From the IMG/VR virus record IMGVR_UViG_3300034190_000169, positions 1 through 24,454 of that record: a stretch of DNA of 24,454 nt; one strand, given 5' to 3'. Under the pieces are notes generated by a model. It ran no database searches. It saw only the letters and a list, made by a program, of their open reading frames with translations, and was not told the origin of the DNA. Origin of the DNA: a virus. Position 1 is the first letter of the stretch. Each line of letters opens with the position of its first letter. The translations under genes were made by a program, and so were the position numbers. Positions 1 to 24,222 of this stretch are shown here, in pieces.

Positions 1-214
1 TGTTGTCGAAGATTAAGAAGCGGGTAGCAAAAGCAGAGGTTATCTTGTCCTGATCCACATATGCCCAGACATGTATTTGTCCGAGCATCGCCTGTTGGAA
101 GGTTTGAAATGTGGTTATCTCGCCAGCAGAATGCTCAAGTGCGGCATCAATATGTGGTGAGATGTTAGGCCAGTAAGTTAGGATTTCCTCTGCACTAAGT
201 AGGTGCAGTGACAT
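1..214 (-). CDS. N-terminal part of a phage protein cut by the window edge
   Basis: An open frame on the minus strand starts with ATG at 214 and runs off the left edge, giving 71 codons that begin MSLHLLSAEEILTYWPNISP. A Shine-Dalgarno-like AGGA sits about 7 bases before the ATG. The frame holds no stop and the text looks like real protein: an N-terminal helix, then alternating hydrophobic strand residues around IHVWAYVDQDKI and FATRFLIFDN. Its place after the fibre genes would fit the small assembly or internal-virion protein found there in T7-like phages, some of which have a GNAT-like fold. That reading is a guess from position and strand pattern only; the catalytic part would lie outside the window. 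Confidence 0.6.
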   Translation of the reverse strand, partial: MSLHLLSAEEILTYWPNISPHIDAALEHSAGEITTFQTFQQAMLGQIHVWAYVDQDKITSAFATRFLIFDN

Positions 215-241: not shown

Positions 242-270
242 ATAATAGCACTTTGCTATTTATAATACAA
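242..270 (-). promoter_or_regulatory. Candidate promoter with overlapping inverted repeat
   Basis: On the minus strand TTGTAT (265-270) is followed after 17 bases by TATTAT (242-247). The -10 matches 5 of 6 consensus bases, the -35 only 3. A perfect 7-base inverted repeat with a 3-base loop (AATAGCA, CTT, TGCTATT; 244-260) covers the -10 and spacer. It could give the leftmost gene its own transcription, or the repeat could be a weak stem ending the upstream transcript, though no T-run follows it. Confidence 0.3.
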
Positions 271-288
271 GCACTTAACTAAATATTA

Positions 289-10289: not shown

Positions 10290-11360
10290 TTAAGCGGCGT
10301 TGTATTTGGCGGTTACGAGTGCTTCGGGACGAAGTATCTTCGAACCGTAGACTTGCATCCCGCGCACGATGTCCGAAAATGAGTCTGGATCACGGTAAGT
10401 CTCAGTTTTCGAAATGGTTTCTGCAGTAGCAACCGCCGAGTTGTGACCCGCTACGATAATGCCATAGTTGGTATTTTGATTGGCAGTACCAGTTGTACCG
10501 GAACCCGTCCCTACCGCTGGAAGATTACTTGAAGTATATACACGGAAGCCGTGGAAGTTCTTCAAGGTCAGTCCGTTGCGTAGTCCACCAGACTCGCCGT
10601 AGTCTGCATTCATGAAGCGTGAATCCTCGTCTGCGAGGAGTTCCATAAACACCGGATCGCAACAAAGCCATCTATTCTGGCTATCAACTTGCTGCTGATC
10701 CATCAGACGTTTCATACGAGCGACAACCATTGCTGGCGATACTGTAGCTGTTGGCAATGTAGTAGCACCGGGCAAACGTGCTGCCAGTGGAATGGAATGA
10801 TCTCCCGGTGAACCTGTAATGTTACCGAAGCTATCTTTCCGAAGTTTCATGCTGGTGAGCAACTCGTCAGAGCCAGCAGTGGCAACAGCCTTATCACCAC
10901 GGGCTGTGGTATTTGCTGTATCGGCTACACCATGAAGAGCGGACTGTTTGAAGCCACAGAGATAACCAAGAACGTCTTGATCAAATTGGTCAGCCAAACG
11001 ATAAGCTGCACGATCCGTAGCTAAATCCATGAAATTGATATGCGAGTGTGCGCTTTCAATATCATCCATCTTAAAGGCGAAATAGTTTGCCTTATTTACA
11101 ACCAGAGAAAAGTCTTCATCGTCTAAATCTTGTGGTTGAATCGTGGTGCCACGGGCATACGCACTGACTGAAATCTCAGGCTCTTTAACGATGCGCACTG
11201 TATCACCTTGGGCATTGATCTCGCCAAAATAATCAGTGTTGGAAATGTCACCTACTACAGTGGCCTTTCTAAACGCAAGTTGGGTTTTTTTGCTATAAAT
11301 TACGGAACTGAACGCGCCATTGGGCAGGTTGCCATGTCCTGTTGCGGATTGGAATGCCAT
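10290..11360 (-). CDS. Major capsid protein
   Basis: This 356-aa protein probably has the HK97/P22-type coat fold. Features that fit are its length, the place after the scaffold, an N-terminal arm (MAFQSATGHGNLPNGAFSSV), a P-domain-like helical stretch (FMDLATDRAAYRLADQFDQD), a RWLCCDPVFMELLADEDSRF segment around residue 230, and a C-terminal half ending ADY/YGSKILRPEALVTAKY, typical of such coat proteins in marine podoviruses. The ATG has AGGAG eight bases upstream. It has its own upstream control region (11361-11754) with a promoter and a Fur-like box, unlike the packed genes before it. Confidence 0.9.
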   Translation of the reverse strand: MAFQSATGHGNLPNGAFSSVIYSKKTQLAFRKATVVGDISNTDYFGEINAQGDTVRIVKEPEISVSAYARGTTIQPQDLDDEDFSLVVNKANYFAFKMDDIESAHSHINFMDLATDRAAYRLADQFDQDVLGYLCGFKQSALHGVADTANTTARGDKAVATAGSDELLTSMKLRKDSFGNITGSPGDHSIPLAARLPGATTLPTATVSPAMVVARMKRLMDQQQVDSQNRWLCCDPVFMELLADEDSRFMNADYGESGGLRNGLTLKNFHGFRVYTSSNLPAVGTGSGTTGTANQNTNYGIIVAGHNSAVATAETISKTETYRDPDSFSDIVRGMQVYGSKILRPEALVTAKYNAA

Positions 11361-11416: not shown

Positions 11417-11435
11417 GTGAATGATAATCATTCTC
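11417..11435. promoter_or_regulatory. Fur-box-like palindrome upstream of the capsid gene
   Basis: The 19-mer GTGAATGATAATCATTCTC matches 16 of 19 positions of the classical Fur consensus GATAATGATAATCATTATC. Its core is a perfect 7-1-7 inverted repeat. It lies 57-75 bases before the capsid ATG. A weak promoter (TTGTGT, 18 bases, TATCAT) on the minus strand would place its -10 inside the box. A related copy is at 24204-24222. A phage-encoded repressor site is an alternative reading. Confidence 0.55.
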
Positions 11436-11616: not shown

Positions 11617-11652
11617 TTATCTCAATGTAATCATTATACCACAGTGAGATAA
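11617..11652 (-). promoter_or_regulatory. 8-bp operator-like dyad around the capsid promoter -10
   Basis: TTATCTCA (11617-11624) and TGAGATAA (11645-11652) form a perfect inverted repeat with a 20-base gap. The TATAAT -10 of the promoter at 11633-11661 sits in the centre. The arrangement suits a dimeric regulator that blocks open-complex formation, or a two-site operator. Confidence 0.45.
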
Positions 11653-11661
11653 GTATTGCAA
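11633..11661 (-). promoter_or_regulatory. Sigma-70 promoter for capsid and tail genes
   Basis: On the minus strand TTGCAA (11656-11661) is followed after 17 bases by a perfect TATAAT (11633-11638). The spacer ends in TGG, giving an extended -10 (TGnTATAAT). Predicted start is near 11626. It points to the capsid gene and would raise it above the read-through level of the packaging operon. Confidence 0.65.
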
Positions 11662-11678
11662 TAGTTAAATACTATATA

Positions 11679-11698
11679 CTGCACCCCCAAGGGCGCAG
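11679..11698 (-). terminator. GC-rich 8-bp hairpin after the scaffold gene
   Basis: On the minus strand CTGCGCCC pairs with GGGTGCAG (one G-U) around a TTGG loop, a very stable stem. No T-run follows, so it is not a textbook intrinsic terminator. It lies 57 bases after the scaffold stop and could protect the 3' end of the packaging mRNA or slow polymerase before the capsid promoter. Confidence 0.45.
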
Positions 11699-11754
11699 CC
11701 GCAGGCTATAGCTAAGTGGCATTTTAGTCAAGTAGCAAATAGCATTTTATTTTA

Positions 11755-18332: not shown

Positions 18333-20207
18333 TTAGTATCCAAATGTTGCATCGGCAGGACGCCAGACTTGTTCGGGAACACCTCTACCCATATCGAAAG
18401 GAGAAAAGGCTTTTGGTCGGCTCATAACTGCATACCTAACGCTGTCGTAGGCATGGTCTGAGGCGTATCTTGGGTCTATATCGTCAGAACCTTTAGGGTC
18501 AGCCGGTATCACAGGTAAATCGGCTATAATTTGTCTGCATGTGTTGAAGAATTGTATGGCAGGTAGGTCTGTGTACTCGTCTACCTTGAGGACTTCATGC
18601 AGTCTGTTCTTGCCAGCCACTCTTGCACCGTTACTTCGATCAGAAGGACGCCATCTGGTGCCTTCGTTTATCATCTCTTCGGCAATACTAGGGCCAATTT
18701 GACCGCGATTATGCCAGCAACTTGAATCGAGTACGCCGTATTGTATCCGGTCACCCTCTTCAGCAGCCTTAATAGCCTTGGCTAGATCACGTCCGGTGTG
18801 TTTTGAAACGTATAATTCCCGATAATTGATTAAAGTACCAAAGTTGGGATCAATTGCGAACCAATGACAAGCAGAATAACTGCTATATCCGTAGTCGCAT
18901 GACCTAAACCTGATCCAATCATGTGGGATGTCATACGGTTCAATAACATGTACAGACTGCCGAAACTCCGAAAAAGCGGCTCCATCAGCAACTGCCCAAT
19001 CTCCCTCAAGAAGTTGCCGCCGCTGCATTTCTGGGAGCGATAATAAGTTAGCCTCATACTGCCCACCTTCCATTAAGTAGGGATTGTCTTTCAATGATGC
19101 GGGAATGAAACGTCTGTAGAATAAAGGTTCTCCCGCCTTCTCATGTCCTTCTGGGTATACTAGGTCTTTTCCGCTATCTAAGTCTTTTGCTATGAATTTT
19201 GTGTTAGCAGGAGCAGGGTCAATCCAAGTACGTTTAACCCATCCATGCCCAATTCCACCGGGGTTGGTTGTTGCTCTCATGTAGATGGGAAGGGTAGAAT
19301 CAGTAGTTCTCAAACGGCTCCTGAGATATGTCCATGCGAAGGGGGTGGCATACTGGGTTAACTCATCTACCGCTATGTAACTAAATGATTGCCCCTGATA
19401 TCTGAGAACGTCTTGATCGCGTTCTAGGTAGCTAAACCACAGCTTGGCACCAGATGGAAAAGTCCATTGTGATTTCTTCTCACCCCATTTTGCCCCTTTA
19501 AATGCAAGAGGGTATAACTCTTGAGATTTCCAAATTAATTCGCGTAACTCATCATTAGTTCTCCTGAGTATCAGACCACTAAAATTAGGATTGCTAAAGT
19601 AACGCATCGGGTCAGCAAGTAATCCAAAAGACTTGCCGCCACCGGCTGCACCGCCATAAAGTACTTCTCTTTCGGACGCTGCTAGGAACTCCGTCTGTGG
19701 ACCTTCATTAGGAGCGAATACTACTTCCTGCTCTTGCCTCTGTTCTTCAATTGCAGAAAAGTCTAAGTTGGCAGTGTCTAGTTCTTCTTCTTTCGGTTTG
19801 AGGGTGTCTAGGTTCTTCTTGGCGATAGTCAGACTTCTTCTAGCGTCTGCTTGCTTGCGTTTAGCAGTGGCTAGTCTCTTCTCTTCAGCCGTCTTGGGCT
19901 TCCGCTTACGGTTCTCTCTGCCTAAATCTTTCAGCCGTTTGGATGGATTGGCAGTACCCCTACCTCTTTCCCGCTTCCAGATGTAGATTAAGCCTTGATG
20001 GCTGATAGGCTCTCCGGTTTGCTTAGACAGCCATTCGGCAGACTTACGGGTGGAATTACCCTGATCTAGGTAATCCAAAGCCTTCTCAATCTTGTCCACC
20101 ATGTCTTGTTTGGCAACCAGTACTAGCGGATCATCTTCAGACTCCTCGTAGGCGTAGGGTTTTTTGGCGTACTTATTTGGACGAGTTTTGTCAGGCCATT
20201 TGGTCAA
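18333..20207 (-). CDS. terL: Terminase large subunit with N-terminal extension
   Basis: This 624-aa packaging motor and nuclease has Walker A GGAAGGGKS (185-193), Walker B YIAVDE (277-282), a coupling motif RATTNPGG (311-318), and an RNase H-like nuclease with D438 (SCDYG), D494 (GVLDSS) and D584/D588 (SDHAYD). The first 160 residues are unusual: a helix-turn-helix-like segment (about 40-80, STRKSAEWLSKQTG) and a long basic coiled coil (90-160). The start codon seems to be TTG at 20207, giving a 4-base TTGA overlap with the terminase small subunit stop; no ATG lies near. Overlap with the upstream gene links the two subunits in translation. Confidence 0.95.
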   Translation of the reverse strand: MTKWPDKTRPNKYAKKPYAYEESEDDPLVLVAKQDMVDKIEKALDYLDQGNSTRKSAEWLSKQTGEPISHQGLIYIWKRERGRGTANPSKRLKDLGRENRKRKPKTAEEKRLATAKRKQADARRSLTIAKKNLDTLKPKEEELDTANLDFSAIEEQRQEQEVVFAPNEGPQTEFLAASEREVLYGGAAGGGKSFGLLADPMRYFSNPNFSGLILRRTNDELRELIWKSQELYPLAFKGAKWGEKKSQWTFPSGAKLWFSYLERDQDVLRYQGQSFSYIAVDELTQYATPFAWTYLRSRLRTTDSTLPIYMRATTNPGGIGHGWVKRTWIDPAPANTKFIAKDLDSGKDLVYPEGHEKAGEPLFYRRFIPASLKDNPYLMEGGQYEANLLSLPEMQRRQLLEGDWAVADGAAFSEFRQSVHVIEPYDIPHDWIRFRSCDYGYSSYSACHWFAIDPNFGTLINYRELYVSKHTGRDLAKAIKAAEEGDRIQYGVLDSSCWHNRGQIGPSIAEEMINEGTRWRPSDRSNGARVAGKNRLHEVLKVDEYTDLPAIQFFNTCRQIIADLPVIPADPKGSDDIDPRYASDHAYDSVRYAVMSRPKAFSPFDMGRGVPEQVWRPADATFGY

Positions 20208-22286: not shown

Positions 22287-22400
22287 CTATTTCTTCGGGG
22301 GCTGTGATGCTGGCTTCTTGTAAGTCGCACCTTCTGGGTATAACTTGGATACCTTGTGAACAGGTTTGATTAAGGCTGCATTATTAGCCAACTTCCTCAT
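22287..22400 (-). CDS. 37-aa small protein
   Basis: The frame MRKLANNAALIKPVHKVSKL continues to PASQPPKK and stop. The ATG overlaps the end of the 87-aa upstream gene and has GAGGAA seven bases before it, a good ribosome site. It fills the otherwise empty stretch between two genes on the same strand. The Pro/Lys-rich tail (YPEGATYKKPASQPPKK) looks unstructured. Short length limits certainty; function unknown. Confidence 0.55.
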   Translation of the reverse strand: MRKLANNAALIKPVHKVSKLYPEGATYKKPASQPPKK

Positions 22401-22647
22401 CTAGTAATTCCTCTAAATATACGTCTGGTAAAAATCTTGACGGCTGAAATGGTACGTCTACTGAATTATCTTCATATGCAAAGAAACGTCCGTATCCCTC
22501 AAACTCTTTAGCCAGAGGATTGGAATTTAACTCCTTCTGAGAAATTAAACCTTCCTCTACTAAAAGCCGACGTATGTGCTTAAAGGTAAGTACTCTTCCG
22601 GTGCGCTGTTGGATTGCAGCACGTATGTAATATAAGTTAAATGCCAT
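22384..22647 (-). CDS. Unknown 87-aa phage protein, first gene of the packaging operon
   Basis: The protein begins MAFNLYYIRAAIQQRTGRVL and has a second helix FKHIRRLLVEEGLI, a possible small helix-turn-helix, then an acidic C-terminal half. I have seen similar RAAIQQRTGR...VRRLLLEEGL proteins in marine phages. It is the first gene after the leader hairpin and promoter at 22787-22815, so it might act in early control of the operon, but nothing proves DNA binding. The ribosome site is weak (GAAAG). Confidence 0.7.
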   Translation of the reverse strand: MAFNLYYIRAAIQQRTGRVLTFKHIRRLLVEEGLISQKELNSNPLAKEFEGYGRFFAYEDNSVDVPFQPSRFLPDVYLEELLDEEVG

Positions 22648-22786: not shown

Positions 22787-22815
22787 ATTGTACCACTTAC
22801 TAGGTGGCGTGTCAA
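22787..22815 (-). promoter_or_regulatory. Strong sigma-70 promoter for packaging genes
   Basis: On the minus strand a perfect TTGACA (22810-22815), a 17-base spacer and TACAAT (22787-22792, 5 of 6). The spacer is almost filled by a near-palindrome CCACTTA-C-TAGGTGG (22793-22807), operator-like. It drives everything from the 87-aa gene through terminase, portal and scaffold, pointing to use of host RNA polymerase. Confidence 0.75.
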
Positions 22816-22851
22816 CTATTTAATTAATATTAATCATACGCCACTTTACTG

Positions 22852-22880
22852 TAGACAAAGGGATACTTCCATGCTATAAT
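22852..22880 (+). promoter_or_regulatory. Rightward sigma-70 promoter facing the DUF1127 gene
   Basis: TAGACA (22852-22857, 5 of 6) is followed after 17 bases by a perfect TATAAT (22875-22880). Transcripts would start near 22887 and run antisense to the DUF1127 gene, with no rightward gene ahead. It lies back to back with the packaging promoter. Confidence 0.55.
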
Positions 22881-22886
22881 GGAGTT

Positions 22887-22950
22887 GTCCCTCCCAGCCG
22901 TATACTATATAGGTACTGGTAGTATTCGTCTTTAGAAGACGGCTTTAAGT
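22887..22950 (+). ncRNA. Candidate small RNA antisense to the DUF1127 3' end
   Basis: This is the predicted output of the promoter at 22852-22880. It contains AGCCGT/ACGGCT (22896-22901, 22939-22944) and ATACTA/TAGTAT (22902-22907, 22920-22925) stems, and a perfect 6-3-6 hairpin CGTCTT TAG AAGACG (22927-22941) that competes with the first stem. A short T-rich GGCTTT follows. There is no coding potential. The end point is a guess. Confidence 0.35.
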
Positions 22951-23154
22951 CGTTTCCCGCTGACCATTCCACTCGCCGTTGGCTGCTCTACGGATATCTC
23001 CACGGGTTATCCCAATATCTTTAAGCATCTTGTCGGACAGGTTATTCAATTGCCAGTAGGCTACCCGTTTTAACTGGTGTTGTTGTATCTTCTTAACAAT
23101 AGCCGCTTCTCCAGAAAAGAAGTGTACTACCACAGCAATAATCTTAGTTAACAT
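22945..23154 (-). CDS. DUF1127 (YjiS-like) small regulator
   Basis: This 69-aa protein has the DUF1127 signature at residues 28-57: RVAYWQLNNLSDKMLKDIGI followed by TRGDIRRAA. These proteins are short, Arg-rich and mainly bacterial; a Rhodobacter member (CcaF1) binds RNA and affects RNA turnover. The N-terminal 20 residues are hydrophobic (LTKIIAVVVHFF), longer than needed for the domain. A very good Shine-Dalgarno (AAGGAG, 7 bases) and its own extended -10 promoter imply separate expression. It sits between the nuclease gene and packaging operon. A role in shifting host or phage RNA metabolism is inference. Confidence 0.8.
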   Translation of the reverse strand: MLTKIIAVVVHFFSGEAAIVKKIQQHQLKRVAYWQLNNLSDKMLKDIGITRGDIRRAANGEWNGQRETT

Positions 23155-23183
23155 GTATATTCTCCTTAGTATGTATACATATC

Positions 23184-23192
23184 ATTATACCA
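23184..23192 (-). promoter_or_regulatory. Extended -10 promoter of the DUF1127 gene
   Basis: On the minus strand TGGTATAAT gives a perfect -10 with TGn extension, about 30 bases before the ATG. No good -35 is present. A 5-3-5 inverted repeat CTAAG TGG CTTAG (23194-23206) lies just upstream, and a palindrome ATGTATACAT (23171-23180) just downstream, both suitable for a regulator. Confidence 0.55.
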
Positions 23193-23222
23193 ACTAAGTG
23201 GCTTAGATAGTAGATACTAAAG

Positions 23223-23232
23223 GGGTATACCC
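23223..23232. other. Perfect palindrome after the endonuclease VII stop
   Basis: GGGTATACCC lies one base after the stop codon of the nuclease gene and is followed on the minus strand by CTTTAG. It is too short and too tight for a good terminator loop. It may be a protein site. Confidence 0.3.
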
Positions 23233-23233
23233 G

Positions 23234-23659
23234 CTATGCGTCTAGGTATTTAATCATCTTCTTCAAAACATCCGTATCATCGCAGGCTAGTCCCAAAGCA
23301 GTATTGCATCTATTGCAAATCCAACCTCTAACCTTCATCGTAGTATGGCAGTGATCCACAGAGAACGGCGTTCTATTCAAGTACCTGCCATTTTCCTTGA
23401 AATTCTCATGTGTCATTCCGCAAATCTGGCATGAGTAATTATCCGGTAGTGGGTTAGCCTCTCTCCATTCAGCCTTGATCTTCTCAGCCTGCTTGTTGCA
23501 TTCCCTGCAACACGGATGGAAAGACGTATTCCCACTACGTCTGTAGATAAGTATATTAAAGTCAGTCTCAGGCTTAACCTTCTTGCAGCCTTTGCATTCC
23601 CTATCAGGGCAAACCTTTTCCGGTTCGACGTGTTCTTCTGGGAATAAACTTAACTGCAA
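23234..23659 (-). CDS. Endonuclease VII-type HNH nuclease
   Basis: This 141-aa protein belongs to the T4 gp49-like (recombination endonuclease VII) group, which cut branched DNA before packaging. Residues 77-80 (CQIC) and 115-118 (CNRC) supply the zinc ligands, D102-H103-C104-H105 is the beta-beta-alpha metal core, and N119 is the likely partner. Helix VLKKMIKYL follows. An N-terminal zinc-ribbon-like part has C22/C25 (CKGC) and C51/C54 (CREC), as in many phage copies. The start appears to be TTG at 23659 (no ATG near; MQLSLFPEE). No dimerisation tail like that of T4 gp49 is visible. It follows the 103-aa gene by 4 bases. Confidence 0.88.
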   Translation of the reverse strand: MQLSLFPEEHVEPEKVCPDRECKGCKKVKPETDFNILIYRRSGNTSFHPCCRECNKQAEKIKAEWREANPLPDNYSCQICGMTHENFKENGRYLNRTPFSVDHCHTTMKVRGWICNRCNTALGLACDDTDVLKKMIKYLDA

Positions 23660-23663
23660 GATG

Positions 23664-23975
23664 CTAGACGTTAAACAAATCAGCCACGGCTTCTTCAGAA
23701 TCAGACATACTGACTGCTTCCATGCGGATACGCTCTGCCTCTCGCGTCATCTCCTCTGAAATTGCAAATAAATGATGATACTCTCCGGTATCCTTATGAT
23801 GAGATAAAATTTTCTCGGTGATATTATAAAAGTCGATACGGACTTTCTGAGAATTACCCTCGTCAGATGCAAACAAGTTGAGTACTATCTGGAGAATACC
23901 GCCTTCGTTAACCTCTACAGAAGCAATAGCCCCGAATAAAACCTCCAGAGATACCTCTGACCCACAATCGTCCAT
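23664..23975 (-). CDS. Acidic 103-aa unknown protein, first leftward gene
   Basis: This is the first gene after the strong promoter at 24013-24041, with AAGGA six bases before the ATG. The protein is acidic, about half strand (SLEVLFGAIASVEV, GILQIVLNLFASD) and half helix (EEMTREAERIRMEAVSM). It has no membrane segment. The early position and strong promoter suggest high early expression, as for small inhibitors of host functions, but I recognise no family. Confidence 0.7.
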   Translation of the reverse strand: MDDCGSEVSLEVLFGAIASVEVNEGGILQIVLNLFASDEGNSQKVRIDFYNITEKILSHHKDTGEYHHLFAISEEMTREAERIRMEAVSMSDSEEAVADLFNV

Positions 23976-24012
23976 GCAAGTTCCTTATGCATTAGTAGTG
24001 GGGTCTAACATA

Positions 24013-24041
24013 AGTATAACAAGGTGGCACATGAATGTCAA
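24013..24041 (-). promoter_or_regulatory. Strong sigma-70 promoter for the endonuclease VII operon
   Basis: On the minus strand a perfect TTGACA (24036-24041), 17-base spacer and TATACT (24013-24018, 5 of 6). Predicted start is about 30 bases before the ATG of the 103-aa gene. The spacer carries the word CAAGGTGGC (plus strand 24020-24028). Confidence 0.8.
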
Positions 24042-24095: not shown

Positions 24096-24181
24096 GGGTG
24101 GATGCTTGGGTGGTCGTTTACGGTTTGTATTTTCTGAAAATATGTCAGGGTGGTATACGCTACCGGTAGGGGGGTGGGTGG
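24096..24181 (+). repeat. Cluster of five GGGTGG words
   Basis: GGGTGG begins at 24096, 24108, 24148, 24172 and 24176, all on the plus strand. The last two lie in a run of six G followed by TGGGTGG and a later GGGG, with some G-quadruplex potential. Iteron-like or structural roles are possible. Confidence 0.55.
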
Positions 24182-24203
24182 CACTGGCAGGGGTCGGCTT
24201 TCT

Positions 24204-24222
24204 GCGAATGAGAATCATTCTC
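24204..24222. promoter_or_regulatory. Fur-box-like palindrome in the right control region
   Basis: GCGAATGAGAATCATTCTC matches 15 of 19 positions of the Fur consensus and forms a perfect 6-3-6 inverted repeat. It shares 20 of 22 bases with the box near the capsid gene (TTGAGAATGATTnTCATTCnCA). It is about 160 bases upstream of the leftward promoter and about 140 before the possible rightward gene. Confidence 0.55.

Follow-up and report, generated by a model that had tools for sequence, protein, structure and literature searches.

A nine-base word, C[TA]A[AG]GTGGC, found at four promoters of a marine podovirus fragment, is, judged from sequence comparison, a genuine DNA control site that recurs in promoters throughout a subgroup of marine phages. 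The element lies in intergenic promoter DNA, is conserved among relatives, and is restricted to the phage subgroup. Reading of the aligned promoters makes the word (GCCACYTWG on the transcribed strand) one local form of CACYTARYTA, an element found across the subgroup, the full dyad form of which is CACYTARTTARGTG. These sites are probably dispersed operators of a phage-encoded repressor, with the word representing a lineage-specific version of one half of a dyad operator.

The window, i.e., the whole stretch of DNA analyzed here, is a linear IMG/VR fragment of 24,454 bases from an HMO-2011-type podovirus. It has terminase, portal, and capsid genes homologous to those of this group, arranged in the gene order of the left-transcribed arm, and it stops short of the replication arm. 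The terminase large subunit (TerL), which was used for phage placement, is 80% identical to that of Roseobacter phage CRP-738 and 70 to 72% identical to those of CRP-235, CRP-212, and CRP-3.

18333..20207, minus strand: terminase large subunit gene

A relative with 77% terminase identity was found in a Rhodobacteraceae metagenome-assembled genome (MAG), and strain FZCC0040 is the common host of phages CRP-207, CRP-3, CRP-212, and CRP-235. HMO-2011-type phages are reportedly one of the dominant marine viral groups. In some subgroups, an integrase is present in most of the phages (PMC6918029, PMC9038755), and CRP-3 is reported to integrate into tRNA-Met (PMC6918029). The CRP-212 record (MZ892988) contains, some 130 bases ahead of the primase gene, a stretch that resembles the 3' end of a tRNA gene and is possibly an attP core.

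Copies of the word at 24020-24028, 22800-22808, 23194-23202, and 11712-11720, as listed in the original prediction, were confirmed, and the window contains no others. All four are intergenic, as had been noted by eye, in a window of which intergenic DNA makes up about 6%. They all read on the plus strand, which corresponds to GCCAC[CT]T[AT]G on the transcribed minus strand, and the genes around them are all on the minus strand. Their predicted placement was also borne out: the words at 24020 and 22800 lie within the 17-bp spacer of near-consensus promoters, that at 23194 is immediately upstream of TATAAT, and that at 11712, on the capsid side, also lies between promoter-like boxes (TTGACT-N17-TAGCCT). 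Sites that had gone unnoticed are an inverted copy at 22840-22848 (TAAAGTGGC), a palindrome at 22793-22807, and two copies at 249-258 and 272-281. The sites and the genes behind them are as follows.

22787..22815, minus strand: promoter A, with TTGACA at 22810-22815, a 17-bp spacer, and TACAAT at 22787-22792, before gp51 and the packaging genes
22793..22807: site A, predicted palindromic operator CCACYTA-N-TARGTGG in the -35/-10 spacer, reading CCACCTAGTAAGTGG on the minus strand and overlapping the word at 22800-22808
22840..22848, plus strand: inverted second word copy upstream of promoter A, reading GCCACTTTA
23190..23202, minus strand: site B, GCCACTTAGTTGG, abutting TATAAT at 23184-23189 in the promoter of the DUF1127 gene
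22945..23154, minus strand: DUF1127 protein gene behind site B (Pfam PF06568, E=1.8e-9)
24013..24041, minus strand: promoter C, with TTGACA at 24036-24041, TATACT at 24013-24018, and the word at 24020-24028 in the spacer, before gp54 and the endonuclease VII gene
23664..23975, minus strand: gp54, the first gene behind promoter C
23234..23659, minus strand: endonuclease VII gene, the second behind promoter C (Pfam PF02945, E=1.3e-14)
11703..11731, minus strand: promoter-like D, with TTGACT at 11726-11731, TAGCCT at 11703-11708, and the word at 11712-11720, upstream of the capsid gene
10290..11360, minus strand: major capsid protein gene behind D (PHROG 267, E=8.8e-63)
242..282, minus strand: site E, with TTAGTTAAGTGC at 271-282 abutting TTGTAT at 265-270, AGCAAAGTGC at 248-257 in a 17-bp spacer, and TATTAT at 242-247, in the promoter of an acyltransferase-like ORF
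2..214, minus strand: acyltransferase-like ORF behind site E, running off the window (42% identity over 52 residues to CRP-738 gp29, a putative acyltransferase)

Site A forms half of a 15-bp palindrome, and the inverted word copy is 40 bases away. The pair at site E flanks the -35 box TTGTAT, and one of the two copies occupies the last part of the spacer, up to TATTAT. The -10 box of promoter D is poor. Half-sites standing alone, and not full dyads, make up most of the window sites.

Dinucleotide shuffles gave an expectation of 0.75 exact copies of the word in the window, and none of 100 shuffles contained 4. One-mismatch copies numbered 18, against 19.7 expected, which is chance level. The window has 22 patterns of the same form with at least four intergenic and no genic sites; shuffles of its intergenic DNA average 12 such patterns, and 90% of these shuffles yield at least one. 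Since the word was picked post hoc and similar patterns are common in shuffles, the window alone is no proof, and significance drawn from it alone was rejected; the relatives must decide. Chance, with a degenerate 9-mer chosen after four copies had been seen, is favored by the similar patterns in shuffles of the window alone, but it is refuted by the counts in relatives and in held-out contigs and by the matrix test described below, and the probability left to it is negligible.

The close relatives were IMG/VR contigs whose terminase or DUF1127 protein most resembles that of the window. L009, L012, L089, and L090 keep the word at all three of promoters A, B, and C, L014 keeps it at A and B, and L091 and L013 keep it at A; absence from the matching promoters of relatives, which the original prediction had named as a refutation, was thus not what close relatives displayed. 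In the alignments of A, B, and C, the promoter boxes and the word are constant and the intervening bases vary. For example, promoter C keeps the word in L009, L012, L089, and L090 although the spacer flanks differ, with TTCATGT-GCCACCTTG in the window, TTGTTAC-GCCACCTTG in L090, and TTAGTAC-GCCACTTTG in L089. Among the close relatives compared, site A persists, with a single base different in L009 and more in L011, and the inverted copy at 22840-22848 is conserved in L009, L012, L014, L089, L090, L091, and L013/G001 but not in L011. Site D is conserved in L019/G002, where the word is intact, and in L029/G004 as GCCACTTAA, where its last base is changed; in both it lies between TTGACN and TAGCCT. 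Drift from the word was seen in some relatives, namely, in L011 and, at A and B, in CRP-738. A DNA-level blastn search of the promoter region against the phage collection gave no match.

The exact 9-mer was not found at the homologous promoters of CRP-738, CRP-235, CRP-212, and CRP-3. Its absence from these cultured relatives was dropped as a refutation once the homologous promoters were read side by side, the putative operator there being CACYTAR or ACACYTA. A TARGTG-like element, whole or decayed, is the counterpart of site E at the acyltransferase-side promoter of G006, G008, G009, CRP-212, and CRP-738. Relaxed by one position to GCCACYTWR, the word has 24 intergenic and 49 genic matches in 22 distant genomes, in which intergenic DNA amounts to 8%; 400 permutations of its letters gave an intergenic mean of 3.3 and a best of 13, none reaching 24. 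Several of the relaxed matches are in promoters with no counterpart in the window, chiefly the promoter that follows the DNA polymerase gene, on the opposite arm, where the spacer element is kept in ten phages (TTGATTGAAACACCTAACTAATGTATAATG in CRP-738, TTGATTACGCCACCTAGTTAGCGTATAATG in G006, and TTGATTTGGACACCTAATTATCGTATAACT in CRP-212).

The core CACYTARYTA has 46 intergenic versus 7 genic matches in 14 subgroup genomes, counts that, like the other intergenic counts given here, are approximate since genes were called by a simple ORF script and that concern a consensus read partly from genomes later tested with it; 400 letter permutations had an intergenic mean of 1.0 and a maximum of 10. 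Among 62 held-out contigs that were not used for the core, it has 11 intergenic versus 6 genic matches (permutation mean, 1.3), and 3 of the 400 permutations reached 11, the best being YRCYTAACTA, a near variant of the motif. The dyads CACYTANNTARGTG were found 7 times in intergenic DNA and never in genes of the 14 subgroup genomes, each strand reading of a palindrome being counted as a match, and other half-site permutations of the dyad averaged 0.05. Among the full dyads, CRP-212 has ACACTTAGTTAGGTGT both in a tail-side promoter and upstream of its integrase gene; at the G004 primase, GCACCTAATTAAGTG is joined to TTGACA, and at promoter A of G010, CCACCTAATTAAGTGG is beside TTGACC. Phages on the HMO-2011/CRP-1 side have 4 intergenic and 6 genic matches to the core and no dyads. 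Enumeration of exact palindromes without degeneracy did not single out the operator.

A weight matrix built from other phages only was run over the window (about 49,000 positions), and its five best matches are all intergenic (272-281, 11709-11718, 22797-22806, 249-258, and 23191-23200); they comprise three of the originally predicted sites and the two new copies at 249-258 and 272-281, and the word at promoter C ranks 15th. In total, 15 of 53 sites are in or directly beside strict promoter predictions, compared with 4.7% of random intergenic positions, which is a sixfold excess. The sites are 1 to 8 bp away from the -35 box, and G009 has one copy in reverse orientation. A search for dyads joined to a -35 box with a variable gap returned 12 stretches from a collection of 2.9 million viral contigs, and 11 of the 12 encode proteins of this group, though the stretches are mostly from one subclade and hence not independent; a strict dyad-N-TTGAC pattern returned one contig only, as the spacing to the -35 box varies. 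The shared site is therefore concentrated in intergenic promoter DNA and conserved at homologous promoters, as is the case in an operator regulon. The coordinated target set, predicted to comprise early, DUF1127, packaging, and capsid transcription, proved wider: element-bearing promoters are those of the integrase, the primase, the gene after the DNA polymerase, endonuclease VII, DUF1127, packaging, capsid, and acyltransferase genes, of which the integrase, primase, post-polymerase, and acyltransferase promoters are additions.

In the proposed mechanism, the operator core CACYTARYTA, with a full site of approximately CACYTA-N(1-2)-TARGTG, would be bound by a phage-encoded regulator. On both genome arms, host-type sigma-70 promoters have the sites in the stretch between their -35 and -10 boxes or right next to one of these boxes. 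Most simply, the bound regulator would exclude the host RNA polymerase, and one repressor could silence the integrase, replication, packaging, capsid, and tail-side promoters together. It is solely from the position of the sites that we infer repression. The range of the promoters, from integrase to capsid, together with the integration of CRP-3 into tRNA-Met, suggests a lysogeny or superinfection-immunity repressor with dispersed operators, in a group with one member known to integrate.

A phage-encoded activator or temporal switch that recruits the host RNA polymerase to the same sites would account for an element common to early, packaging, and capsid-side promoters and for the single orientation of the word at the four window promoters. 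However, the boxes of promoters A and C match the consensus at 11 of 12 positions with a 17-bp spacer, and therefore no activator should be needed there. Spacer-acting activators, e.g., those of the MerR family, use spacers of 19 to 20 bp, unlike A and C. The varying offset from the -35 box, the reversed copy in G009, and the presence of the integrase promoter among the sites also speak against activation, which we regard as unlikely. A spacer or extended -10 feature intrinsic to the promoter and read by the host RNA polymerase with no separate regulator would suit a word that lies in spacers, at times directly before the -10 box (TTGG-TATAAT and GTGC-TATAAT). Such a feature is highly improbable because the register of the word to the boxes varies, a full dyad also occurs immediately upstream of the -35 box, symmetry of this kind would not be expected, and phage CRP-207 does without the element in the same host. 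Promoter overlap, variable register, reversed copies, and dyad symmetry are together better fitted by a dimeric repressor than by an activator or a polymerase feature.

Phages often carry operator sites of their hosts, and a host transcription factor might bind the site, with the phage borrowing host control. However, CACYTARTTARGTG occurs in none of 150 genomes of the family of the relative-bearing MAG, which is the putative host family, and a backward control pattern does occur in them; the MAG itself has one dyad compared with four control matches. Moreover, CRP-207 has no enrichment of the core, even though it shares strain FZCC0040 with CRP-3, CRP-212, and CRP-235. The site is thus specific to the phages in these comparisons, and host control is hardly plausible, despite two Fur-box-like palindromes that are also present in the window. 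These palindromes, at 11417-11435 (capsid leader) and 24204-24222 (upstream of promoter C), match GATAATGATAATCATTATC at 16 and 15 of 19 positions, respectively; shuffled windows contain 0.05 such matches. Boxes resembling them are present on the C side in L009, L011, L089, and L090 and on the capsid side in G001, with little intergenic sign in the other group members scanned.

The original prediction of an operator of a phage regulator is partly upheld: relatives strongly support a phage-specific site common to several promoters, and its core is enriched between genes across the subgroup at nonhomologous promoters as well; the exact word was too narrow a description. One weak candidate for the regulator is encoded directly behind the palindromic site.

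22384..22647, minus strand: gp51, a small conserved protein, the first gene behind site A

The AF2 model of gp51 has three helices (residues 5-16, 22-31, and 37-42) with high pLDDT in the first 40 residues, and the protein has a subthreshold match to HTH_33, a winged-helix family (E=0.13). A fold search against the PDB gave nothing significant, and one against BFVD gave one probable homologue without a name. A profile search found gp51 homologues across the HMO-2011 group, weak in HMO-2011 itself. Phylogenetic profiling for the regulator had pointed to gp09, gp15, gp16, gp51, and gp54 as seemingly confined to the operator-bearing subgroup, and gp51 was not singled out, as it also occurs on the HMO-2011/CRP-1 side. 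Because its distribution is wide and does not track the operator, gp51 is a lead only. It is conceivable, but doubtful, that gp51, a small, group-wide, three-helix protein for which the searched libraries hold no known relative, is a new kind of phage repressor acting on its own packaging operon and, via dispersed CACYTARTTARGTG operators, on the lysis-lysogeny choice. Among early hypothetical proteins of CRP-3, CRP-738, and CRP-212, Pfam and PHROG scans found no clear helix-turn-helix (HTH) repressor; an HTH-like stretch is present in CRP-212 gp55.

The lambda repressors CI and Cro bind dyad operators that overlap or adjoin the -35/-10 boxes of sigma-70 promoters and are clustered at two control regions. 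In contrast, the operators proposed here are dispersed, are often single half-sites, and reach capsid and tail-side promoters. In phage P1, the C1 repressor acts on scattered operators, 17-bp asymmetric sites that overlap promoters of unrelated functions. The likeness to P1 consists of one repressor with dispersed, promoter-overlapping operators, and the differences are in the sequence, the host, and the asymmetry of the P1 sites; general family scans yielded no C1 homologue. As here, mycobacteriophage L5 and other cluster A phages have many short repressor-site copies genome-wide, in promoters and short intergenic gaps (PMC9283540). Each L5 site is an asymmetric 13-bp sequence to which a monomer binds, and the sites stop elongation as well (PMC9283540). 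The single orientation relative to transcription at the four window promoters is a further likeness to L5, whereas full dyads, reversed copies, and many copies inside promoters set the present sites apart from the exclusively asymmetric sites of L5. No gp71-type (L5) repressor was seen in general Pfam and PHROG scans of selected proteins. By analogy, the sites may work like the dispersed operators of L5 and P1, and membership in either class is not claimed.

A text search of papers on the HMO-2011-type group, PMC6918029 and PMC9038755 among them, found no mention of a promoter or repressor, and an operator regulon of this known kind is apparently undescribed for the group. The operator map is a first testable handle on gene control in HMO-2011-type phages: it predicts which promoters are coregulated, and the site can serve as DNA bait for the regulator, e.g., as a CACCTAATTAAGTG probe. 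In addition, metagenomic fragments can be assigned to the subgroup with the element as a sequence marker.

Other conserved features adjoin the promoters described above. At the -35 position of the DUF1127 promoter, which has no TTGACA-like box, TATCTACT at 23209-23216 is nearly invariant in the relatives compared, and the phage-encoded DUF1127 protein is conserved on both sides of the HMO-2011 group. The main capsid promoter (11623-11670) is separate from site D and has an invariant TAACTATTG block and TATAATG or TACAATG in all aligned relatives. Just downstream of promoter D, a GC-rich stem, GCGCCC-TTGG-GGGTGC (11673-11710), is conserved in L019 and L029, a structure that the 5' end of the D transcript could adopt. 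An Rfam search of the window gave no match, including for a conserved noncoding element upstream of promoter C (24112-24184) that consists of GTGCCACC, a C-run, CGTATACCAC.CTGAC, and ACCGTAAACGACC. This element recurs in CRP-738, CRP-235, CRP-212, CRP-3, and many IMG/VR relatives and is perhaps related to the origin or to packaging.
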